Positions 37,811 to 59,803 of a DNA stretch of 64,000 nt are shown piece by piece. Origin of the DNA: Sandaracinus amylolyticus (GTDB lineage Bacteria > Myxococcota_A > Polyangia > Polyangiales > Sandaracinaceae); assembly GCF_021631985.1 (NCBI RefSeq), contig NZ_CP070225.1:2356001-2420000 (forward strand), in the 5' to 3' direction. The notes under the pieces are model-generated. The model saw only the letters and a program-made list of their open reading frames with translations, did no database searches and was not told the DNA's origin. Numbering within the stretch: the first letter of the stretch is position 1; each line of letters starts with the position of its first letter. Made by a program: the position numbers and the translations under genes.

Positions 37811-38557
37811 ATGAGCAAGGTGAAGATCATGATCGTGGACGACAGTCCGCTGATCATCGACGTGGTGGGAACGGTCCTTCGCGGGGCCGGGTACGAGGTG
37901 GTCACGCGATCGGTCGCGGTGGGCGCGAGCGCCGCGATCCTACGAGAGCGACCGGCGTTGGTCCTGATCGACGTCTCGATGCCGCTCGTGACGGGCACCG
38001 AGATATCGCAGTCACTCCGCGGTAGTCGCTCGTCACACGAGAGCGTGATCGTGTTGCACTCGGACCGCCCGGCCGAGCAGCTCGACGCGCTGGTGAAGGA
38101 GTGCGGCGCCGACGGGTATGTCCGCAAGACCGGCAACCCGCGCGAGCTCCTCGCGGAGGTGTCGCGCTGGCTCGCGTACGGCGCGCGCAAAGCGCGGGGC
38201 CGCGGGGCGGGTGTGTTCGTCGCGGCGAGCATCGCGACCCAGGCGCTGGTGCGCGAGGTGATCGGCACGCGGGCGACGGTGCAGGCGACCGACTCCGGCA
38301 CCGAGGCGCTGCGCGTGCTCTACGCGCGTGATGCGCTGCGCAGCGTCGTGATCGGGAGCGCGCTCCGCGATCTCAGCGCGTCGACGTTGTGGCGCAAGGC
38401 GCTCGAGGTCGATCCGCGGCTGCGCGGGCGCATGGTCGTGATCGACGAGGGCGGGCGCGACGAGCGCGTGTGGCCCGCCGACGTGGTGTGGTGGACGCGC
38501 GCGGATCGTCCGGATCGGCTGCTCGAGGCGCTCGCCCTCGAGGGCGCCGAGGGCTGA
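37811..38557 (+). CDS. Dual-receiver response regulator, FrzZ-like
   Basis: The protein has about 248 residues. The first receiver (1-125) has the acidic pair in IVDDSP, the acceptor aspartate in VLIDVSMPL and the lysine in GYVRKTG. The second half (about 135-245: GVFVAASIATQALVREVIG...VVIGSALRDL...MVVIDEGG) has the receiver strand order but lacks an acceptor aspartate at the end of strand 3. In Myxococcus, FrzZ is a two-receiver output protein of the Frz system. Here only one domain appears phosphorylatable. Start ATG 37811 gives MSKVKIMIVDDSP, with GAGGG six bases upstream. It opens the chemosensory cluster. Confidence 0.78.
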   Translation: MSKVKIMIVDDSPLIIDVVGTVLRGAGYEVVTRSVAVGASAAILRERPALVLIDVSMPLVTGTEISQSLRGSRSSHESVIVLHSDRPAEQLDALVKECGADGYVRKTGNPRELLAEVSRWLAYGARKARGRGAGVFVAASIATQALVREVIGTRATVQATDSGTEALRVLYARDALRSVVIGSALRDLSASTLWRKALEVDPRLRGRMVVIDEGGRDERVWPADVVWWTRADRPDRLLEALALEGAEG

Positions 38558-38560
38558 CGC

Positions 38561-38995
38561 GTGGCGCAGCAGGTGGTGCGCTTCCGAGTGGCGTCCGCGC
38601 AGCTCGCGATCGCGGCGGAGCACGTCGACGAGATCGTGCCCTGCGAGACGCCGACGATCGTGCCCGGCGTGCCGGCGCACGTCGCGGGGATCGTCGCGGT
38701 GCGCGGGGACGCAGTGCCGCTGCTCGATCTGCGGATCTTCCTCGGGCTCGGCGACGCGGTGAGGTCCGAGGATCGCGAGCCGCGCGTGCTCGTGGTGCGC
38801 GCCGCGGGATATCGCGTCGGGCTGATCTGCGATCTCGTCGTGGGCATCCGCGCGATCGGCGACGAGCGCTTCGGACCGCCCGCGAGCGTGCAGCCTCCGG
38901 AGCTGCGCGAGCACGCGCGGGCGCAGCTCGATCTGGGCGACTCGATCGCGGTGGTGCTCGACCTCGAGCGGATGCTGGAGGCGGCGCGTGCGTGA
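38561..38995 (+). CDS. CheW-type coupling protein (FrzA-like)
   Basis: The 144-residue protein consists of one CheW domain: VVRFRVASAQLAIAAEHVDEIVPC, GIVAVRGDAVPLLDLRIFLGLGD, RVLVVRAAGYRVGLICDLVVGI and a C-terminal AVVLDLERML. The 'RG..VP..DL' motif is the CheW hallmark. It links receptors to the CheA kinase in the cytosol. The GTG start lies three bases after the upstream stop. The next gene overlaps its 3' end by eight bases. Confidence 0.88.
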   Translation: MAQQVVRFRVASAQLAIAAEHVDEIVPCETPTIVPGVPAHVAGIVAVRGDAVPLLDLRIFLGLGDAVRSEDREPRVLVVRAAGYRVGLICDLVVGIRAIGDERFGPPASVQPPELREHARAQLDLGDSIAVVLDLERMLEAARA

Positions 38996-39368
38996 GCTCG
39001 CGATGTCGGTCGTGGTGGTGCCGCTCGCGGCGGTGCGGCTCGTCGTCGACGCGCGGCGCGTGAGCGCGATCGAGGACGCGTCGTCCGCCGAGGGCACGAC
39101 CCACGATCTCGCGGAGATGATGGGCATCGCGCTGAGTGAGCAGAGCGTGGGCGAGCTGGGGCGGCGCGCGCTGCAGGTCGACGGAGGAGCGTGGCTCGTC
39201 GCGGCGGAGCGGGTGATCGTGCGATCGCTGCGCGTCGAGGCGTTCCATCCGCTGCCGAGCTGGCTGGGATCGCTGCACGAGCGCCTCGGCATCACATCGC
39301 TGGTCGCGCTCGAGGACGGGTTCGGGTTCGAGCTCGACGTCGATCGTGTCGCGGGAGGGAGCGCGTGA
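38988..39368 (+). CDS. Small divergent CheW-like protein (FrzB-like position)
   Basis: The 126-residue protein has a CheW-like sequence of strands (VVVVPLAAVRLVVDARRVSAIEDA at the front, ALQVDGGAWLVAAERVIVR in the middle) but lacks the 'RG..VP' segment. It is shorter than a full CheW. In Myxococcus the Frz system has a second small CheW-like protein, FrzB, whose function also differs from FrzA. Position and size argue for an analogue; sequence similarity is too weak to prove it. It overlaps both neighbours (eight bases with cheW; GTGA with cheAY). Confidence 0.5.
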   Translation: MRELAMSVVVVPLAAVRLVVDARRVSAIEDASSAEGTTHDLAEMMGIALSEQSVGELGRRALQVDGGAWLVAAERVIVRSLRVEAFHPLPSWLGSLHERLGITSLVALEDGFGFELDVDRVAGGSA

Positions 39369-41407
39369 GCTCGTTCCAGGCGCGCTTCCGCGTGCTGGCG
39401 CGCGAGCGCCTCGTCGTGATCCGCGCGCACCTCACGGCGCTGGGGCGCGGCGGTGAGGACGTCGGTGAGCGCGGCGCCGAGCTGCGCCGCGAGGTCCACA
39501 CCATGAAGGGCGAGGCGCGCATCGTCGGCGAGGACGAGATCGCGAGCGCGCTCCACGAGCTCGAGGAGGAGCTCGCACACGCGGGCGAGGGCATGCTCGC
39601 GCCCGAGCGCGTCGCGTCGTTGCTCGCGCGCATCGATGCGATCGAGCTCGCAATCGATCGGAACGAGACGCCACGCGAGAGCGCGCCACCGGGCGGCGAC
39701 GATTGGGTCGAGCGGCTCGCGCGGAGCGCGGGCGGTGCGCTGCTGCGCGTCGACGTCGGCGCGGTCTCGCGGATCGCGCGCACGGTGGGAGAGCTGCGCA
39801 TCGGAGAGACCGATCTGCAGCGCGCGATCGAGGGGCTCTCAGAGATCGCCGACGCAATCCGAGTGCGCGGTGACGATGCGACGGATCGCGCGCGGGCGGC
39901 GGCCGATCTGCGTCGGCTCGTCGTCGGGATGCGACAGCTCGCGTTCGATCAACACGTGCGCATCGACCAGCTCGTCTCGCACGTGCGCGAGGTGCGGATG
40001 GTCCCGCTCGGCACGCTGTTCGAGCGCTTCCCGCGCGCGGCGCAGCAGCTCGCGCAGGAGCTCGGGAAGCAGCTGCGCGTCGAGGTGCGCGGGGCCGACG
40101 TGCAGGTCGATCGCCAGGTGCTCGACGTGATCGCGGAGCCGATGCTGCACCTCGTGCGCAACGCGGTCGATCACGGGCTCGAGGCGCCCGACGTACGGCG
40201 CGATCACGGAAAGGCGCCGGAGGGCACGCTGGAGCTCAGCGCGATCACCGAGGGCTCGCTGGTGCGCATCGAGGTGCACGACGACGGGCGCGGGGTGGAC
40301 GTGATCGCGCTCCAGGCCGCGCTGCGCGAGCGCGGGATCGGCGCGGCGGAGGACGTCGCGACGCTCGACGACGAGGAGATCCTCGAGCGGCTCTGCCGAC
40401 GCGGGCTCAGCACGCGGCGCACGGTGACCGACATCTCGGGGCGCGGCGTCGGGCTCGACGTGGTGAAGCGGCGCGTCGAGTCGGTCGGCGGTCGGCTCGG
40501 GCTGCGCACCATCGCGGGCGCGGGCGCGACGTTCTCGATCGAAGTGCCGATGTCCGCGCTGCTCGCGCCGATGCTCTGCGCGGTGACGGACGACGCGCGA
40601 TATGCGCTCGCGCCGCAGGACGTGGAGCAGCTCGTCGAGCCGAGCGCGTCGAGCATCGAGACGGTGGGGCGCGGGCTCGCGCTGCGGGTGGAGGGCGCTC
40701 CGGTGCCGTTCTTCGATCTCGCGACGCTCCTGGGGCGCGCGCGGCGCGATCCGCGGGAGCGCACGACCGGGCTGGTGATCGCGCACGGGGGACGGCGGAT
40801 CGCGGTCGCGGTCGATCGCGTCGTGGGCACGCTCCCGGTGCTGCAGCATCGGCTCGATCCGTTCCTCGAGGGCGCGACGCTGGTGCGCAGCGTGGCGCTC
40901 CTCGCGAACGGCGAGCTCGCGGTCGCGCTCGACGTCGGCGAGCTGTTCCGGCGTGCCGACGCCGGGCGCGCGATCGCGGGGTCGGCGGAGAGCGAGCGCG
41001 CGAGAGCGCGCAGCAAACGCGTGCTCGTCGCCGACGACTCCGAGCTCACGCGCGACGTCGTGGTGTCGATCCTCCGCGAGATGCAGCTCGACGTGATCGA
41101 AGCGGTCGATGGGCGATCGGCGCTCGAGCTCATCGCGTCCACCAAGCCCGACCTCGTGCTCACCGATCTCGACATGCCGGTCGTCGACGGGTTCGAGCTG
41201 CTGCGCCGGGTGCGCGCCGAGCCTGCGTGGTCGTCGCTGCCCGTCATCGTGCTCTCGACGCGGTGGGCGCCCGCGGATCTGCAGCGCGCGTCGGAGCTCG
41301 GCGCGGACGCGTACCTCGTGAAGAACCGCATCGAGCTCGACGAGGTGCGCCGCGTGGTCGGCGCGCACCTCGCGACACCGCGCCGCGAGGAGGGCGAGCG
41401 GCCTTGA
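39365..41407 (+). CDS. CheA-CheY fusion kinase (FrzE-like)
   Basis: The 680-residue kinase has an HPt domain with H45 (VHTMKGEA), a short linker, a dimerisation region and an ATPase core (N box HLVRNAVDHGLE; G1 DDGRG; G2 SGRGVGLDVVKRRVES). A CheW-like regulatory domain follows at about 395-530, then a C-terminal receiver with acceptor D601 (VLTDLDMPVVDG) and lysine in YLVKNR. The phosphotransfer helix and the receiver in one chain are the FrzE architecture. No P2 domain for a separate CheY is evident. The start is the GTG overlapping the upstream stop. Confidence 0.92.
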   Translation: MSSFQARFRVLARERLVVIRAHLTALGRGGEDVGERGAELRREVHTMKGEARIVGEDEIASALHELEEELAHAGEGMLAPERVASLLARIDAIELAIDRNETPRESAPPGGDDWVERLARSAGGALLRVDVGAVSRIARTVGELRIGETDLQRAIEGLSEIADAIRVRGDDATDRARAAADLRRLVVGMRQLAFDQHVRIDQLVSHVREVRMVPLGTLFERFPRAAQQLAQELGKQLRVEVRGADVQVDRQVLDVIAEPMLHLVRNAVDHGLEAPDVRRDHGKAPEGTLELSAITEGSLVRIEVHDDGRGVDVIALQAALRERGIGAAEDVATLDDEEILERLCRRGLSTRRTVTDISGRGVGLDVVKRRVESVGGRLGLRTIAGAGATFSIEVPMSALLAPMLCAVTDDARYALAPQDVEQLVEPSASSIETVGRGLALRVEGAPVPFFDLATLLGRARRDPRERTTGLVIAHGGRRIAVAVDRVVGTLPVLQHRLDPFLEGATLVRSVALLANGELAVALDVGELFRRADAGRAIAGSAESERARARSKRVLVADDSELTRDVVVSILREMQLDVIEAVDGRSALELIASTKPDLVLTDLDMPVVDGFELLRRVRAEPAWSSLPVIVLSTRWAPADLQRASELGADAYLVKNRIELDEVRRVVGAHLATPRREEGERP

Positions 41408-42435
41408 GCGCGCGTGCGATCCGAGTGCTCGTCGCAGACGATTCGCCGCTCTGCGCCGAAGCGCTGCGCACGGTGATCGACGCCGATCCGCGGATGCGCG
41501 TGGTCGGCATCGCGCACGACGGGCTGCGCGCGATCGAGCTCGCGGCCGCGCTGCGTCCGACGGTGATCACGATGGACGTGCACATGCCGAGGCTCGACGG
41601 GCTCGCGGCGATCGCGCGCATCCGCGCGGTGCAGTCGGCGCGCATCCTCGTGGTGACCGGCGACGACGCGCGCGGGCTCGCGTTCGAGGCGATGCGTCGC
41701 GGCGCGGCCGACGTGGTGAGACGGCCGCATCCGCGGCAGGGATGGAGCGCCGGCGAGCACGACGATCTGCGGCGTCGCATCGTCGCGCTCGCGCAGGTGC
41801 CGATGACCACGTCGCCGAGCGCGCCGCCTCCGCGGGTGCGTCCCGCGCCGACGTCGGCCAGCGGGCGCGTGGAGATCGTCGGGATCGCGGCGTCGACCGG
41901 CGGACCGATCGCGATCGCGACCGTGCTCGCGTCGCTGCCGCGCACGTTCGCGGCGCCGATCGTGATCGTGCAGCACCTCGCGGCGGGGTTCGCGGAGGGC
42001 CTCGCGCGATGGCTCGACGGCGCGTGCGAGCTCCGGGTCCGGCTCGCGCGCGAGGGTGAGGTGCTGCGCGCGGGTGACGTGCGCGTCGCGCCCGACGACG
42101 TGCACGTCGCGATCGAGCGGGGCGCGCGGGTGCGCTTCGATCGCGATGCGGCGATCGAGGGGCATCGTCCTTCGGCGACGCGCCTGTTCTCGTCGCTCGC
42201 GCCGCTCGGCGCGCGGGCCGCGGGCGTGGTGCTCAGCGGGATGGGGCGCGACGGCGCGAGCGGGCTCGCGGCGCTGCGGCGCGCCGGCGGCGTGGCGATC
42301 GCGCAGGACGAAGCGACCAGCATCGTGTTCGGGATGCCGCGCGCCGCGCGTGACGCGGGCGCGGAGGTGCTCCCGCTCGATCGCATCGCGGCGCGGCTCG
42401 AGTCGCTGGTCGCGGCGCGCGAGGTCGCGTCGTGA
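41404..42435 (+). CDS. cheB: Chemotaxis protein-glutamate methylesterase CheB (FrzG-like)
   Basis: The 343-residue protein has an N-terminal receiver (D12-D13; acceptor D58 in TMDVHMPR). A linker of about 45 residues rich in Pro/Ser leads to the methylesterase domain with the serine in GIAASTGGP, the histidine in VIVQHLAAGF and the aspartate in LSGMGRDGASG (S-H-D triad). It removes methyl groups from the receptor and adapts the response. The start appears to be TTG 41404, overlapping the cheAY stop (TTGA). Myxococcus FrzG lacks the receiver, so this is a more canonical CheB. Confidence 0.93.
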   Translation: MSARAIRVLVADDSPLCAEALRTVIDADPRMRVVGIAHDGLRAIELAAALRPTVITMDVHMPRLDGLAAIARIRAVQSARILVVTGDDARGLAFEAMRRGAADVVRRPHPRQGWSAGEHDDLRRRIVALAQVPMTTSPSAPPPRVRPAPTSASGRVEIVGIAASTGGPIAIATVLASLPRTFAAPIVIVQHLAAGFAEGLARWLDGACELRVRLAREGEVLRAGDVRVAPDDVHVAIERGARVRFDRDAAIEGHRPSATRLFSSLAPLGARAAGVVLSGMGRDGASGLAALRRAGGVAIAQDEATSIVFGMPRAARDAGAEVLPLDRIAARLESLVAAREVAS

Positions 42436-43751
42436 GCTTCGCAGAGCGGCTCGCGCCGCTGATCGCACAGCGGCTCGGTCTACGGCCCTCGGTGCGATCG
42501 ACCGACGCCGAGCTCGCGACGCTGATCGAGGCGCGCCGCCGCACGCTGGGCCTCTCGAGCGCGGCGGCGTACCTCGAGCACGTGACGCGCGCGCCCGAGC
42601 TCGAGCTCGCGCATCTCGCCGCGGCGTTCACCAACGGATGGACGTGGTTCTTCCGCGACCACGAGGCGATCGTCGCGCTCGCCGAGCGGCTCCGCGCGAG
42701 CGCGAACGGTGCGCCGGCGCGGGTGTGGGTCGCGGGGTGCTCGACCGGCGAGGAAGCGTACGGCGTCGCGATCGCGTGCGCAGAGCGCGGTGTGGACGTG
42801 CGCGTGGTCGCGAGTGACGTCGACGCGGCGCGCATCGAGATCGCACGGCGCGCGGAGTACGGCGCGCACGCGCTGCGCCGGGTGCCCGAGACCGCGCTCG
42901 CGCGATGGTTCGAAGCGCGCGGCGATCGCGCGCGCGTCTCGGCCGAGCTGCGCGCCCGCGTGATGCTCCGCGTGCACAACCTGCTCGACCCCCCGCTGCT
43001 CGCGCCGGGCGGTGGCGGCTGGGACGCGATCGTCTGCCGGAACGTGCTGCTCCACTGCACCGACGAGTCGTCGTCGCGCATCGCGGATCAGCTCGCGAGC
43101 GCCGTCGCGTCGCACGGCGTCGTGCTCTTCGGGCCCGGCGATCCGCGGCCCAGCGCGCCGATCGTCGTCACACCGCGCCCGGTTGCGCGCGCGCCCTCGA
43201 CACCACCGCCGCCGCCCCGTGAGCGGAGCGTCGACGAGCTCTGGGCCGACGCGCGCGAGCGCATCGCGCGCGGTGCCTACGCGGCCGCAGGAGGCTCGCT
43301 CGAGCGATTGCTCGCGCGCGCGCCCGACCGCGTCGAGGCGTGGCTCGCGCTCGGCAACGTGCGGCTCGCGACCCACGATCTCGCGGGCGCGGAGGACGCG
43401 TATCGCGCGGCGGAGCGGATCGACCCGCTCTCGGCGGAGCTCTGCTTCGTGTGGGGCGCGCTCCATCGCAAGCGCGGCGCGTGGGACGACGCGACGCGCG
43501 CGCTGCGCCGTGCGGTCTTCCTCGACGCGGATCTCTGGCCCGCGCGGTATCTGCTCGCGGGCGCGTGGGATCGCGCCGGCGAGCACGAGCGTGCGCGCGC
43601 GGCGCTCGACGCGACGCGGCGATCGTTGGTGCGCCGGCCGGAGATCCGGTGGCGCTCGTGCGTGGACGACATCGAGGCGCTCGCGTGCCCTGCCGAGATG
43701 GTGCGCGCGATCTGCGCGCAGCGAGTGGGATCGAAGGAGGAGGTCGGGTGA
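42432..43751 (+). CDS. cheR: Chemotaxis methyltransferase CheR with C-terminal TPRs (FrzF-like)
   Basis: The 439-residue protein has a CheR N-terminal helical domain (1-60), an S-adenosylmethionine-binding domain (VWVAGCSTGEEAYGVAIACAERG; VICRNVLLHC) and, after a proline-rich linker at about 250-265, three or four tetratricopeptide repeats (DELWADARERIARGAYAAAGGSLERLLARAPDRVEAWLALG...). This domain order is that of FrzF, where the TPRs control which receptor sites are methylated. The GTG overlaps the cheB stop; its TGA overlaps the receptor ATG. Confidence 0.92.
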   Translation: MSFAERLAPLIAQRLGLRPSVRSTDAELATLIEARRRTLGLSSAAAYLEHVTRAPELELAHLAAAFTNGWTWFFRDHEAIVALAERLRASANGAPARVWVAGCSTGEEAYGVAIACAERGVDVRVVASDVDAARIEIARRAEYGAHALRRVPETALARWFEARGDRARVSAELRARVMLRVHNLLDPPLLAPGGGGWDAIVCRNVLLHCTDESSSRIADQLASAVASHGVVLFGPGDPRPSAPIVVTPRPVARAPSTPPPPPRERSVDELWADARERIARGAYAAAGGSLERLLARAPDRVEAWLALGNVRLATHDLAGAEDAYRAAERIDPLSAELCFVWGALHRKRGAWDDATRALRRAVFLDADLWPARYLLAGAWDRAGEHERARAALDATRRSLVRRPEIRWRSCVDDIEALACPAEMVRAICAQRVGSKEEVG

Positions 43752-45160
43752 TGGACGGCGGCGAACGGTCGATCGTGTCGGAGCTGGACGCGCGCACGCG
43801 CGCCTTCGAGCTGCGGTTCATGCGCACTGCGAGCGCCGGGCTCGCGACGGTGATGGTCGCGGCGCTCAGCGCGATCTCGTACTTCCAGCCCTCGCTCGTC
43901 TCCGTCGCGTGCCTGGGGATCATCGTGATCGCGACGGGCAGCGCGTTCGGGCTCACGTTCACGCCGTACCGCCGCTCGGCGGCGGCGGTGCTGCTCTTCG
44001 GCACGTCGTGCGGCGCGCTCCTCGCGGTCGCGTTCGACGGCACGGGCACGTTGGGGTCGGGCGCGCTGCAGGCGCTGCTCATCAACGTCGCGCTCTCGCC
44101 GTTCCTGCTGCCGCGCAGCGGCGTGATCGCGCTGGTCGGGTTCAACGCGGGCGCGGGCATGCTCGCGCACCTCAAGGTCGGCCTGGTCGACGGGGGATCG
44201 CCGGCCGACCTGGTGCCCGCGGCGGTGGGCTCGGCGCTCGTGCTCGGCGTCGCAGCGCTCTCGATCTCGTCGTTCGTCGGTCAGGCGAAGGAGCACCAGG
44301 ACTCGCTGCGCCAGCGCCTGCACGACATCGACATCGTGATGGAGCGCGCGCGGCGCATCGCGAAGGGCGATCTCGCCGGCGAGATCCAGGGCGACAGCGA
44401 CGTCTCGCGCGTGATCGCGTCGATGCTCGGCGGGCTGCGCGGGCTGGTGGAGCAGATCCAGAAGGACGCGTCGCAGCTCACCCACGCGAGCAACGAGATC
44501 GCGGCGATGGCGCAGCAGCAGGAGCGCAGCGCGATCGAGCAGGGCGGCGCGATCGAGGAGACGCGGCGCACCGTCGGCACGCTGCTCCAGGGCTCGCGCT
44601 CGATCGCCGGGGCGGCGCGCGGCGTGACCGACAATGCGAGCGCGACGCTGCAGAACGCGGAGCTGATCAGCGATCGCATCCGCACGCTGACCGAGCACGC
44701 GCAGCGCATCACCGAGCTGCTCGAGCTGATCCGCGACGTCGCGAACAAGTCGGAGCTGCTCGCGCTCAACGCGGCGCTCGAGGGCGCGAAGGCGGGCGAG
44801 GCGGGGCGCGGCTTCTCACTGGTCGCGAACCAGATGCAGCGGCTCGCGGAGAGCGTGATGGAGTCGGTGAAGATCGTGAAGGAGCTCACCGGCGACATCC
44901 GCAAGGCGACCCAGGCGACCGCGCTGGCGACCGAAGACGCGACGAAGCTCGCGCGGGACACCACCGACGCGGCGCGCCGCATCGGCGTGATCACCGAGGA
45001 GCAGGAGTCGAGCACCGAGCAGGTGACGCGCGCGATGGACGAGATCGCCGACGCGACGCATCAGAGCGCGGCGGGCACGAACCAGACGCTGCAAGCGGTG
45101 CGCGAGCTCTCGCAGATCGCGGAGCGCCTGCACCACTACACGTCGCAGTTCCAGCTCTAG
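43751..45160 (+). CDS. Membrane-anchored methyl-accepting chemotaxis protein
   Basis: The 469-residue protein has about six hydrophobic segments in residues 25-185 with short connections, so there is no periplasmic ligand domain; the signal is probably sensed within the membrane. A HAMP-like helix pair (AKGDLAGEIQGDSDVSRVI) and a signalling coiled coil follow. The hairpin tip is IRDVANKSELLALNAALEGAKAGEAGRGFSLVANQMQRLAE, the conserved kinase-contact region. FrzCD of Myxococcus is cytoplasmic, so this receptor differs. GGAGGAGG lies before the ATG. Its TAG shares the palindrome CTAG with the convergent murG stop. Confidence 0.9.
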   Translation: MDGGERSIVSELDARTRAFELRFMRTASAGLATVMVAALSAISYFQPSLVSVACLGIIVIATGSAFGLTFTPYRRSAAAVLLFGTSCGALLAVAFDGTGTLGSGALQALLINVALSPFLLPRSGVIALVGFNAGAGMLAHLKVGLVDGGSPADLVPAAVGSALVLGVAALSISSFVGQAKEHQDSLRQRLHDIDIVMERARRIAKGDLAGEIQGDSDVSRVIASMLGGLRGLVEQIQKDASQLTHASNEIAAMAQQQERSAIEQGGAIEETRRTVGTLLQGSRSIAGAARGVTDNASATLQNAELISDRIRTLTEHAQRITELLELIRDVANKSELLALNAALEGAKAGEAGRGFSLVANQMQRLAESVMESVKIVKELTGDIRKATQATALATEDATKLARDTTDAARRIGVITEEQESSTEQVTRAMDEIADATHQSAAGTNQTLQAVRELSQIAERLHHYTSQFQL

Positions 45161-57719: not shown

Positions 57720-58400
57720 ATGCAGCTCGATTTCAAGGCACGCGAGCTGACCGTCAAGCTCGTCTATTACGGGCCGGCGCTCAGCGGGAAGACCACCAAC
57801 CTCCAGGCGGTGCACGAGCTCGTCTCGCCGCAGGCGCGTGGTCGCCTGATGACGCTCGAGACGAAGGACGACCGCACGCTCTTCTTCGATCTGCTGCCGC
57901 TCTCGGTGCAGGCGGGGCGGGGCCTCTCGGTCCGCATCAAGCTGTTCACCGTTCCCGGCCAGGTCATCCACAACGCGACGCGCCGGCTCGTGCTCCAGGG
58001 CGCCGACGGAGTCGCGTTCATCGCGGACTCGCAGCGCGCCGAGACCAAGGCGAACGCCGCGGCGTTCGTGAACCTGCGCCAGAACCTCGTCGAGAACGGG
58101 ATCGATCCCGCGGCGATGCCGCTGGTGATCCAGTTCAACAAGCGCGACATGCCCGACGTGCGCACCGACGTCGAGATCGACGCGCTCGCGGCGAAGGGCA
58201 AGGAGCCCGTCTACAAGGCGATCGCGCTGCGCGGGCACGGCGTGCTCGAGACGCTGATCGGCCTCTTCGAGATCACGTGGAGCAAGCTCGAGCGCGAGCA
58301 CCAGCTCGCCGAGAAGTTCGGCGTGCAGGGCGCGGATCTGCTCGGCGAGGTGCGCACCAAGCTCGGCATCGAGCCGGCGCGGCGGGAGGTGGCACCGTGA
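57720..58400 (+). CDS. MglA-like small GTPase
   Basis: The 226-residue Ras-like GTPase has the P-loop GPALSGKTTNLQ, the switch region with TLFFDLLPL, the TVPGQ motif (in place of DTAGQ), QFNKRDMPD (the guanine-specific NKxD) and a final helix. TVPGQ and RTLFFDLLP are the marks of the MglA family, which sets cell polarity and motor direction in Myxococcus. The C-terminal extension of about 30 residues (EKFGVQGADLLGEVRTKLGIEP) is not in canonical MglA. No MglB is adjacent. Its stop overlaps the kinase gene (GTGA), so a histidine kinase is made with it. Confidence 0.88.
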   Translation: MQLDFKARELTVKLVYYGPALSGKTTNLQAVHELVSPQARGRLMTLETKDDRTLFFDLLPLSVQAGRGLSVRIKLFTVPGQVIHNATRRLVLQGADGVAFIADSQRAETKANAAAFVNLRQNLVENGIDPAAMPLVIQFNKRDMPDVRTDVEIDALAAKGKEPVYKAIALRGHGVLETLIGLFEITWSKLEREHQLAEKFGVQGADLLGEVRTKLGIEPARREVAP

Positions 58401-59803
58401 GCAGCGCGGTGGACACCGAGCTCAGCCTCGCGGACGTCGCGCGCCTCGAGGACGTGGTCGATCGTGCCGCGCTCGCCGAGGTGTGTCGCTCGTTCTTCGA
58501 GCTGTTCTCGCTGCCCGTGCGGGTGTTCTCGCGCGACGGGACGTTGCTGAGCGACGTGCACGAGGAGCAGGCGATCTGCCGCTACGTGAACGGGTTCGCG
58601 CCCGGTCGCGCGGCGTGCAGCAAGCTCGTGGGCGAGGTGCGCGCGATCGATCCCGAGGACGGACCGGTCGAGCATCCGTGCTTCACCGGCGCGTGTTATC
58701 GCGTGGTGCCGATCCACTACCAGGGCCGGCGATTGGGCCGCTTCGTGGTCGGTCCGTACATGCCCGCGGAGCGACGCGAGGTGCCGCGCTCGCTGCTGGT
58801 GCTCGACGATCGCATCGATCCGCGGGCGGCGCGCGACGCGCTCGGCGAGATGCCGCGGGTGCGTCAGGAGACGATCGAGCGCATCACCGAGCACCTTCGT
58901 CGGGTGCTCGATCTGATCCTGTTCTCGGGGCACCGCGCGTACCTCACGAGCCAGATGCACGTCGCGAGCGTGCGCGAGAGCTACCGCGAGCTCACCGAGA
59001 AGACGCAGCGCCTGCAGGACGCCTACGATCGACTGAAGGAGCTCGACCGCCTCAAGTCGAACTTCCTCGCGACGGTGAGCCACGAGCTGCGCACGCCGCT
59101 GACCTCGATCATCGGGTACAGCGACATGCTCGCGTCGGGCATCGCGGGCGAGCTCAACGGCGAGCAGCAGGAGTTCGTCGAGACGATCCGGAGCAAGGGC
59201 GATCACCTGCTCGCGCTGATCACGAGCCTGCTCGATCTGAACAAGCTGGAGCAGGGCAACCTCCCGCTGCGTCGCGAGCCGGTCACGCCCTCTGCGCTGA
59301 TCGACGATCTCGCGAAGACGGTGCTCCCCCAGGCGCAGAAGAAGGGCGTGCGGGTCGAGGTCGACGTGCAGGGCGCGCGCGAGCCGATGCCGCTCGACCC
59401 GGTGCGCATCAAGCAGGTGCTCTTCAACCTCGCGGAGAACGCGATCAAGTTCACGCCGAAGGGCGGCAGCGTGCGCTTCGGCGTGCGCACGACCGAGATG
59501 GTCGACGGCGAGGGCGACGAGGGCGCGCTCGGGCTGGTGCTGATGGCGGCGCCGCGTCGTGCGGTCGAGTTCTCGATCACCGACTCGGGCATCGGGATCC
59601 CGGCGTCCGAGCACCAGAAGATCTTCGACGCGTTCTACCAGGTCGACGGCAGCTCGACGCGCGAGCACGGCGGCACGGGGCTCGGGCTCTCGATCGTGAA
59701 GCGGCTCGTCGATGCGCATGGCGGTCGCGTGTGGGTCGAGAGCAAGCCGGGCGAGGGCGCGACGTTCCGGGTCGCGATCCCCGAGCCCGACGAGCTCGCG
59801 TGA
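58397..59803 (+). CDS. Sensor histidine kinase with PocR ligand-binding domain
   Basis: The 468-residue soluble protein has an N-terminal PocR-type domain at about 8-175 (LADVARLEDVVDRAALAEVCRSFFELFSLPVRVFSRDGTLL...CRYVNGFAPGRAACSKLV...HPCFTGACYRVVPIHYQGRRLGRFVVGPY) with five cysteines. Then come a coiled coil, HisKA with its histidine in TVSHELRTPLTSIIGY and an ATPase domain (N box NLAENAIKFTP; G boxes DSGIGIP and GGTGLGLSIV). PocR domains bind small hydrocarbon-derived ligands in known cases. No receiver is nearby. The start is the GTG overlapping the mglA-like stop; thiL overlaps its end. Confidence 0.88.
   Translation: MSSAVDTELSLADVARLEDVVDRAALAEVCRSFFELFSLPVRVFSRDGTLLSDVHEEQAICRYVNGFAPGRAACSKLVGEVRAIDPEDGPVEHPCFTGACYRVVPIHYQGRRLGRFVVGPYMPAERREVPRSLLVLDDRIDPRAARDALGEMPRVRQETIERITEHLRRVLDLILFSGHRAYLTSQMHVASVRESYRELTEKTQRLQDAYDRLKELDRLKSNFLATVSHELRTPLTSIIGYSDMLASGIAGELNGEQQEFVETIRSKGDHLLALITSLLDLNKLEQGNLPLRREPVTPSALIDDLAKTVLPQAQKKGVRVEVDVQGAREPMPLDPVRIKQVLFNLAENAIKFTPKGGSVRFGVRTTEMVDGEGDEGALGLVLMAAPRRAVEFSITDSGIGIPASEHQKIFDAFYQVDGSSTREHGGTGLGLSIVKRLVDAHGGRVWVESKPGEGATFRVAIPEPDELA

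Follow-up and report, generated by a model that had tools for sequence, protein, structure and literature searches.

What kind of chemosensory system is encoded by the seven co-directional genes at positions 37,811–45,160 of the window (the whole 64,000-nucleotide stretch of Sandaracinus amylolyticus DNA analyzed here) was the question raised by this locus, which the initial annotation had read as counterparts of FrzZ, A, B, E, G, F and CD and as a possible Frz variant that might sense the state of the membrane. We judge it probable, on balance, that the genes represent an alternative cellular function (ACF)-type operon of the Frz/Che3 group, in which a short adaptor that contacts only receptors would tune membrane arrays and whose output would most likely be motility polarity. 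Across the operon, the evidence for this reading is sequence-based: it comprises the order and domains of the genes, their kinship, their catalytic motifs and a segment lost in the adaptor family.

The placement of the cluster was derived from phylogenies of CheA and of the receptor. The careful CheA tree was calculated with IQ-TREE from 58 rows, 17 of 75 having been dropped as near-identical, long or partial; among those dropped were L266 and L267, both of which stood beside the window group in an earlier quick tree. A larger quick CheA tree comprised 66 rows (18 of 84 dropped), with further loci added and L092 replaced by L277, which is the same gene, and a quick receptor tree comprised 57 rows. 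Support in the quick trees (two of CheA and one of the receptor) is from the Shimodaira–Hasegawa-like approximate likelihood ratio test (SH-aLRT) only, and the receptor tree carries a long-branch warning. In the careful tree, FrzE, the Che3 kinases, the window group and the kinases of a family (f23) that we take to be Bradymonadia-like formed one clade (98/99), within which the window group joined the Bradymonadia-like sequences (99/97) and FrzE joined these two (91/65). The Frz/Che3 clade was also recovered in the 66-row tree (97, 35 rows), which gave no clear branching order for FrzE, Che3 and the remaining rows, and in the receptor tree (99), where window and Bradymonadia-like receptors grouped together (98) and FrzCD paired with Mcp3 (81). 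The window CheA lay outside the FrzE clade in the careful tree, and outside the Che3 clade in both this tree and the larger quick one. The approximately unbiased (AU) test rejected a topology in which the window and Bradymonadia-like CheAs join the next CheA group while Frz and Che3 are excluded (p 0.003). Based on the trees and the AU tests, the cluster is therefore kin to Frz and Che3 and not a FrzE member; as judged from these sequences, it is part, with the Bradymonadia-like genomes, of a sister group of Frz/Che3 that is about equally near both. The designation as Frz counterparts is thereby retained at the level of the clade, but the window proteins lie outside FrzE and FrzCD. Consistent with an ACF-class Frz/Che3 assignment, the CheA has P3–P5 and a C-terminal receiver and belongs to the FrzE/CheA3 clade, and a CheR with tetratricopeptide repeats (CheR-TPR) and a CheB are encoded in the cluster; Frz itself is placed in the ACF class in PMC3441718.

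The second line of evidence is the short gene between cheW and cheA, the product of which had no match in Pfam (E 0.001), NCBIfam (E 0.01) or the PDB sequences (E 10). A short frame of ~118–160 residues, longer where the frame continues upstream, was present in 30 of the 32 readable clusters of the 35-row CheA clade, including Frz (as FrzB) and Che3. It was located 3' of CheW and ahead of the receptor or CheA gene, and in L004 and L064 a single receiver gene intervenes. Three further clusters (L216, L265 and L268) are cut and stand outside the 32, and the short frame of G173 lies on another contig than its CheA, without which the count is 29 of 31. In a small set of frames, models that did not include L298 or L300 matched the frame of L298 at E 1e-5 and that of L300 at E 2.4e-8; that of L266 is weak (E 0.0027) and lies directly 3' of a CheW. 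Among the clade rows left out of the larger quick tree, the short frame was also found in L062, G125 (L048) and G141 (L053), and L267, L269, L257 and G272 are cut or unreadable. None of 23 other che clusters had a short frame: all 22 frames with E < 0.01 for a short-adaptor model scored better as full CheW or CheA; 17 of these clusters are outside the clade by trees (16 in the 66-row tree, L251 in an earlier one) and L287–L292 were not placed in a tree. A scan of 5723 frames with subgroup models gave matches only in clade clusters, except for one L069 frame at E 0.035.

The named Myxococcaceae genomes in this comparison were reached via a verified FrzS receiver, and part of their CheA loci was read. 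TIGR02269, which we took to be a Myxococcus family, matched 0 of 282 genomes and no control and was uninformative. The frz operons were those of L246, L254, L255, L256, L258 and L262 (frzZ is cut by the contig end in L246 and L255, and no separate CheB match was found in the L258 operon), and the Che3 loci were L247, L261, L263, L283 and L286. L247 was identified as Che3 by gene lengths, its frames of 796, 605 and 145 amino acids (aa) corresponding to CheA3 (798 aa), Mcp3B (605 aa) and CheW3 (145 aa) of MXAN_5147-5151 in the Che3 description of PMC3945109. The five Che3 short frames were assigned by position and mutual similarity. In Myxococcus Che3, cheW3 and mcp3A are separated by a short gene that had gone unremarked (L247:3879-4250), and it is present in L261, L263, L283 and L286 as well; that of L247 is presumably MXAN_5150. 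A search of the open-access literature did not find a paper naming MXAN_5150, and its listings, most entries of which were judged by listing alone, held nothing on FrzB-like proteins elsewhere.

Profile–profile comparison against 72 full CheWs indicated which part of CheW the short proteins lack. The window family left CheW residues 30–48 unpaired (45%, E 2.2e-4), the Bradymonadia-like proteins residues 30–47 (96.6%, E 5.7e-10) and FrzB residues 31–49 (97.4%, E 1.6e-11). A joint profile of the window and Bradymonadia-like proteins matched CheW at 97.5% (E 5e-12) and FrzB at 88.7% (E 2.6e-6), the window-family profile matched the Bradymonadia-like short proteins at 80–82%, and a negative control, a receiver alignment, reached at most 4.8%. 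Residues 30–48 are the CheA-binding segment of CheW, which is present in the CheW of the window. In the full CheWs, which also contribute to the profile, each of the 17 residues 31–47 is filled in 72 of 72 cases. Nineteen of 33 short proteins (32 distinct) aligned to CheW across the segment at E < 1e-3, and 18 of the 19 fill at most nine of its residues, the exception (b44) being an over-long frame; the other 13, including that of the window, fell short of this. The FrzB-like gap is tentatively read from the family profile and from that with its relatives, the window protein alone being unaligned. As described in PMC6952110, FrzB is without a 20-residue region and binds FrzCD and not FrzE, and a chimera in which FrzB codons 27–36 are replaced by FrzA codons 41–75 acts as a normal CheW. 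In the FrzA of Myxococcus sp. CA023, for which a start was chosen that gives the 160 aa listed in PMC3945109, codons 41–75 (35 codons) span the missing stretch. As part of the explanation favored above, and at the same strength, we consider the short second adaptor to be CheW-like and its family to be without the CheA-binding segment.

A number of results weigh against this reading. The branching order of FrzE, Che3 and the window group is unsettled, since AU tests did not firmly reject FrzE with the window group (p 0.061) and did not reject Frz with Che3 as a clade (p 0.267), and Che3 with the window and Bradymonadia-like groups also had a p of 0.267. The short gene is absent from two clade members, L277 (G186) and L299 (G407). 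The window small protein alone is not significantly similar to CheW (E 0.16), the family's CheW match needs the Bradymonadia-like relatives, and the window-family profile depends on settings, scoring 1.4% with 11 CheWs, 28.6% with 72 and 45% with another column rule; against FrzB it scored 1.7–10.9% (10.9% at E 0.0028). The Che3 short proteins had no significant CheW similarity (profile 2.8–4.8%). AlphaFold models built from single sequences reached a mean predicted local distance difference test (pLDDT) value of 38.6 for the short adaptor and 45.9 for the FrzZ-like protein, and these models were not used. Finally, FrzZ compared with the whole genome places the window FrzZ-like protein only second of 23.

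It is against this background that we consider a true Frz orthologue, with an ancestral membrane receptor retained and cell reversal controlled exactly as by Frz, to be an unlikely alternative. The likeness is considerable: all seven Frz counterparts are in a single operon, among them a CheA-CheY fusion, a CheR-TPR, a short second CheW and a FrzZ-like first receiver, MglA is encoded in the genome, and FrzE with the window group was not firmly rejected by the AU test. Opposing this are the grouping of the window CheA and receptor with Bradymonadia-like proteins outside FrzE and FrzCD and the pairing of the Frz and Che3 receptors. There are differences in organization too, as the Myxococcus order is frzA-B-CD-E-G-F with frzZ divergent, whereas the FrzZ-like gene of the window is co-directional and its membrane-borne receptor gene is last in the operon. 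The CheB receiver of the window, which the initial annotation had correctly noted, retains the acid pair and the acceptor Asp (with Arg in place of the usual Lys), whereas that of Myxococcus FrzG is degenerate, and the FrzZ-like C-terminal domain is without the Asp. The membrane receptor and CheB receiver do differ from Frz, but Che3 and further relatives have both, so that these two features are probably ancestral.

Elsewhere in the genome, the other che clusters yielded no CheA closer to FrzE than that of the window; these clusters are L001–L004 (at 0.84, 2.35, 3.85 and 5.35 Mb by CheW and methyl-accepting chemotaxis protein (MCP) models; a lone MCP is at 7.94 Mb). In the CheA trees L001 and L002 are far from the window, L003 is in another group and L004 is with the window group. 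The genome thus carries another member of the clade at L004:6254-12000, where a CheW is followed by a lone FrzZ-like receiver, a short CheW-like protein, a receptor with a periplasmic-sized loop, CheA-CheY and CheB. L002 extends into positions 1–2228 of the window with a CheA, a CheW, an 850-aa receptor and a CheB; in the careful tree this CheA forms a pair with that of L253 from Myxococcus sp. CA023.

The receptor also sets the window cluster apart from Frz. A hydropathy scan (threshold 1.4) counted five membrane segments in the window and G012 receptors and six in those of G045 and G002, fitted into ~175 residues without a long loop. Six segments, as initially annotated, are likely for the window receptor also, although the scan itself gives five; the predicted lack of a periplasmic domain agrees with the missing loop. 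The N-terminal membrane region had no match in Pfam and is conserved within the family. Two FrzCD rows scanned had no membrane segments, and FrzCD is described in PMC12077210 as nucleoid-bound with two HAMP domains; the hydrophobic N-terminus of the window receptor is not of this cytoplasmic, nucleoid-binding type.

An improbable alternative is a Che3-like working, i.e., a membrane-receptor ACF system with gene expression instead of motility as its output. The two systems share a CheA-CheY, a CheB with receiver, a CheR-TPR, a short gene after cheW and membrane receptors (listed with six segments for Che3 in PMC3945109, which describes Che3 as a regulator of gene expression in development). Conversely, no transcription regulator is among the seven genes of the operon and a FrzZ-like receiver protein is, whereas the fetched Che3 stretch had no FrzZ-like match except the receiver of CheA itself. 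Che3 also has two receptors, in tandem and ahead of CheA, unlike the single receptor of the window. Its receptor membrane domains have no detectable kinship to that of the window by profile (0.24%, and 0.12% after the start of the G012 row was corrected), and because of this we dropped the idea of a six-helix sensor inherited in common with Che3. Quite improbable is that the short protein is a decayed, functionless second CheW, its common gap the result of repeated degeneration of a dispensable copy: the sequences are very divergent, two readable clade members have no such gene and the Che3 versions are not alignable to CheW, but the frame is intact, of similar length and in a matching place in nearly all readable clusters, the adaptor is 87% identical between two Sandaracinus genomes (CheW, 90%), and a FrzB mutant has a phenotype (as reported in PMC6952110).

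Turning to the favored ACF-type reading and its output, the FrzZ-like regulator is encoded by the first gene of the operon, and such a nearby regulator is one of the marks of Frz systems given in Keilberg 2012. Its N-terminal receiver has the acid pair, the acceptor Asp54 and the Lys. The C-terminal domain of ~117 residues is without the acceptor Asp in all four distinct family rows, so that the window protein does not have two acceptor-Asp receivers as FrzZ does; the acid pair is lost in three rows, and G002 retains one acidic residue. This domain found only orthologues with phmmer and matched receivers at 64% (E 6.5e-5, 77 columns) in profile–profile comparison. It is possibly a pseudo-receiver, for which support is weak; the annotated loss of the Asp stands, but the identity as a second receiver is less secure. 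A search of the larger che loci with the N-terminal receiver of FrzZ as query gave receivers of L298, L299, L060, L267, L005 and L061 as its first non-FrzZ matches, and the window FrzZ-like protein was among these first non-FrzZ frames; together with the genome-wide rank, these results weakened a plain claim of FrzZ orthology. The genome encodes an MglA that is 82% identical, and S. amylolyticus is described as gliding in PMC5010890, but neither of these ties the operon to motility. The window itself encodes, at 57720-58400 (+), an MglA-like GTPase that is 45% identical to M. xanthus MglA (the genome has five MglA-like matches in all, this one included); a histidine kinase frame (58277-59803) adjoins its gene.

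We propose that the membrane receptor, CheW and CheA would form arrays at the inner membrane, and that the short adaptor would bind the receptors and not CheA, tuning the size or number of arrays as FrzB does. CheA would phosphorylate three targets, namely the receiver fused to it, CheB and the N-terminal receiver of the FrzZ-like protein. The FrzZ-like protein would pass on the signal, its most likely target being surface-motility polarity (MglA), and adaptation of the receptor would be the task of CheR-TPR and CheB. On this proposal the short adaptor would be an old component of the Frz/Che3 group and not an innovation of the nucleoid-bound Frz.

Systems of this kind are already known: for Haliangium and Sorangium, the Fig. 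S6 legend of Keilberg 2012 (PMC3441718) reports Frz/Che3-like systems in which the receptors are membrane-bound and the genes are ordered differently. The likeness to those of Haliangium ochraceum and Sorangium cellulosum, which have a FrzZ-like regulator nearby, is by that legend only, and the S. cellulosum system is said there to be without FrzF and FrzG, unlike the window. The Bradymonadia-like clusters (L065, L067, L069, L071-L074 and L270) resemble the window in their CheW, short CheW-like protein, CheA-CheY, membrane receptor without a long periplasmic part and membership of the same sister group, and differ in that the receptor is ahead of CheA, seven receptors scanned had one or two membrane segments, and no CheB or CheR match was found in the fetched stretches. 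Four other Bradymonadia-like stretches (L066, L068, L070 and L075) have receptors of 490–506 aa, which group within the Frz/Che3 receptor clade, beside a single-receiver (CheY-like) frame; a larger receiver-bearing frame was also present, and no match to a CheA-like kinase.

The genes are listed in the table below. The initial annotation of seven overlapping genes was accurate with respect to the genes and their products (by Pfam, the small protein excepted), but with the chosen starts only five of the six junctions overlap, by 4–8 nucleotides, and the first is a gap of 3 nucleotides. The identical seven-gene order was found in G012 (same genus) and in G045 and G002 (same family), and G036 has the first four genes followed by a contig end; this repetition indicates that the order is not due to chance. 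The motif residues of the CheA-CheY fusion are His45 (Hpt) and Asp601 and Lys653 (receiver). Within the explanation as a whole, it is probable that this Sandaracinus operon is complete and encodes an ACF-type chemosensory system of the Frz/Che3 group.

Table. Genes of the chemosensory cluster in the window (the Pfam scan of the receptor used a start at 43742)
Gene product	Position	Strand	Evidence
FrzZ-like protein, 248 aa	37811..38557	+	PF00072 at 6-117 only; FrzZ alignment
CheW (FrzA-like), 144 aa	38561..38995	+	PF01584 E 5.4e-28; PDB CheW chains
Putative short CheW-like (FrzB-like) protein, 126 aa	38988..39368	+	no Pfam; gene position as in relatives
CheA-CheY fusion (FrzE-like), 680 aa, GTG start	39365..41407	+	PF01627, PF02518, PF01584, PF00072
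CheB methylesterase, N-terminal receiver, 343 aa	41404..42435	+	PF00072, PF01339
CheR methyltransferase, C-terminal TPRs (FrzF-like), 439 aa	42432..43751	+	PF01739, TPR families
Chemoreceptor, 470 aa, N-terminal membrane region and MCP signalling domain	43748..45160	+	PF00015

FrzB and FrzZ are described as limited to the Cystobacterineae in section 8 of PMC4546325, and it is suggested in PMC6952110 that selection for nucleoid-associated arrays may explain why FrzB lost its CheA-binding region. Our results speak against a Cystobacterineae limit for FrzB-like proteins and for proteins resembling the first receiver of FrzZ, and suggest that a FrzB-like adaptor beside a membrane receptor is older and more widespread than published. 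The broader claim, that a receptor-only adaptor (a CheW minus its CheA-binding element) is ancestral and near-universal in one chemosensory branch, many members of which have membrane receptors, is one on which we are close to evenly divided. If true, both of the published statements would be affected, and the effect of FrzB on array number would be a general array-limiting device older than the move of FrzCD to the nucleoid. The Che3 of Myxococcus would then hold an unnoticed member, encoded between cheW3 and mcp3A. Membrane receptors accompanied, in several families, by a short CheW-like gene would open the role of the adaptor to tests in ordinary membrane arrays, and also in the Che3 system of a model organism.

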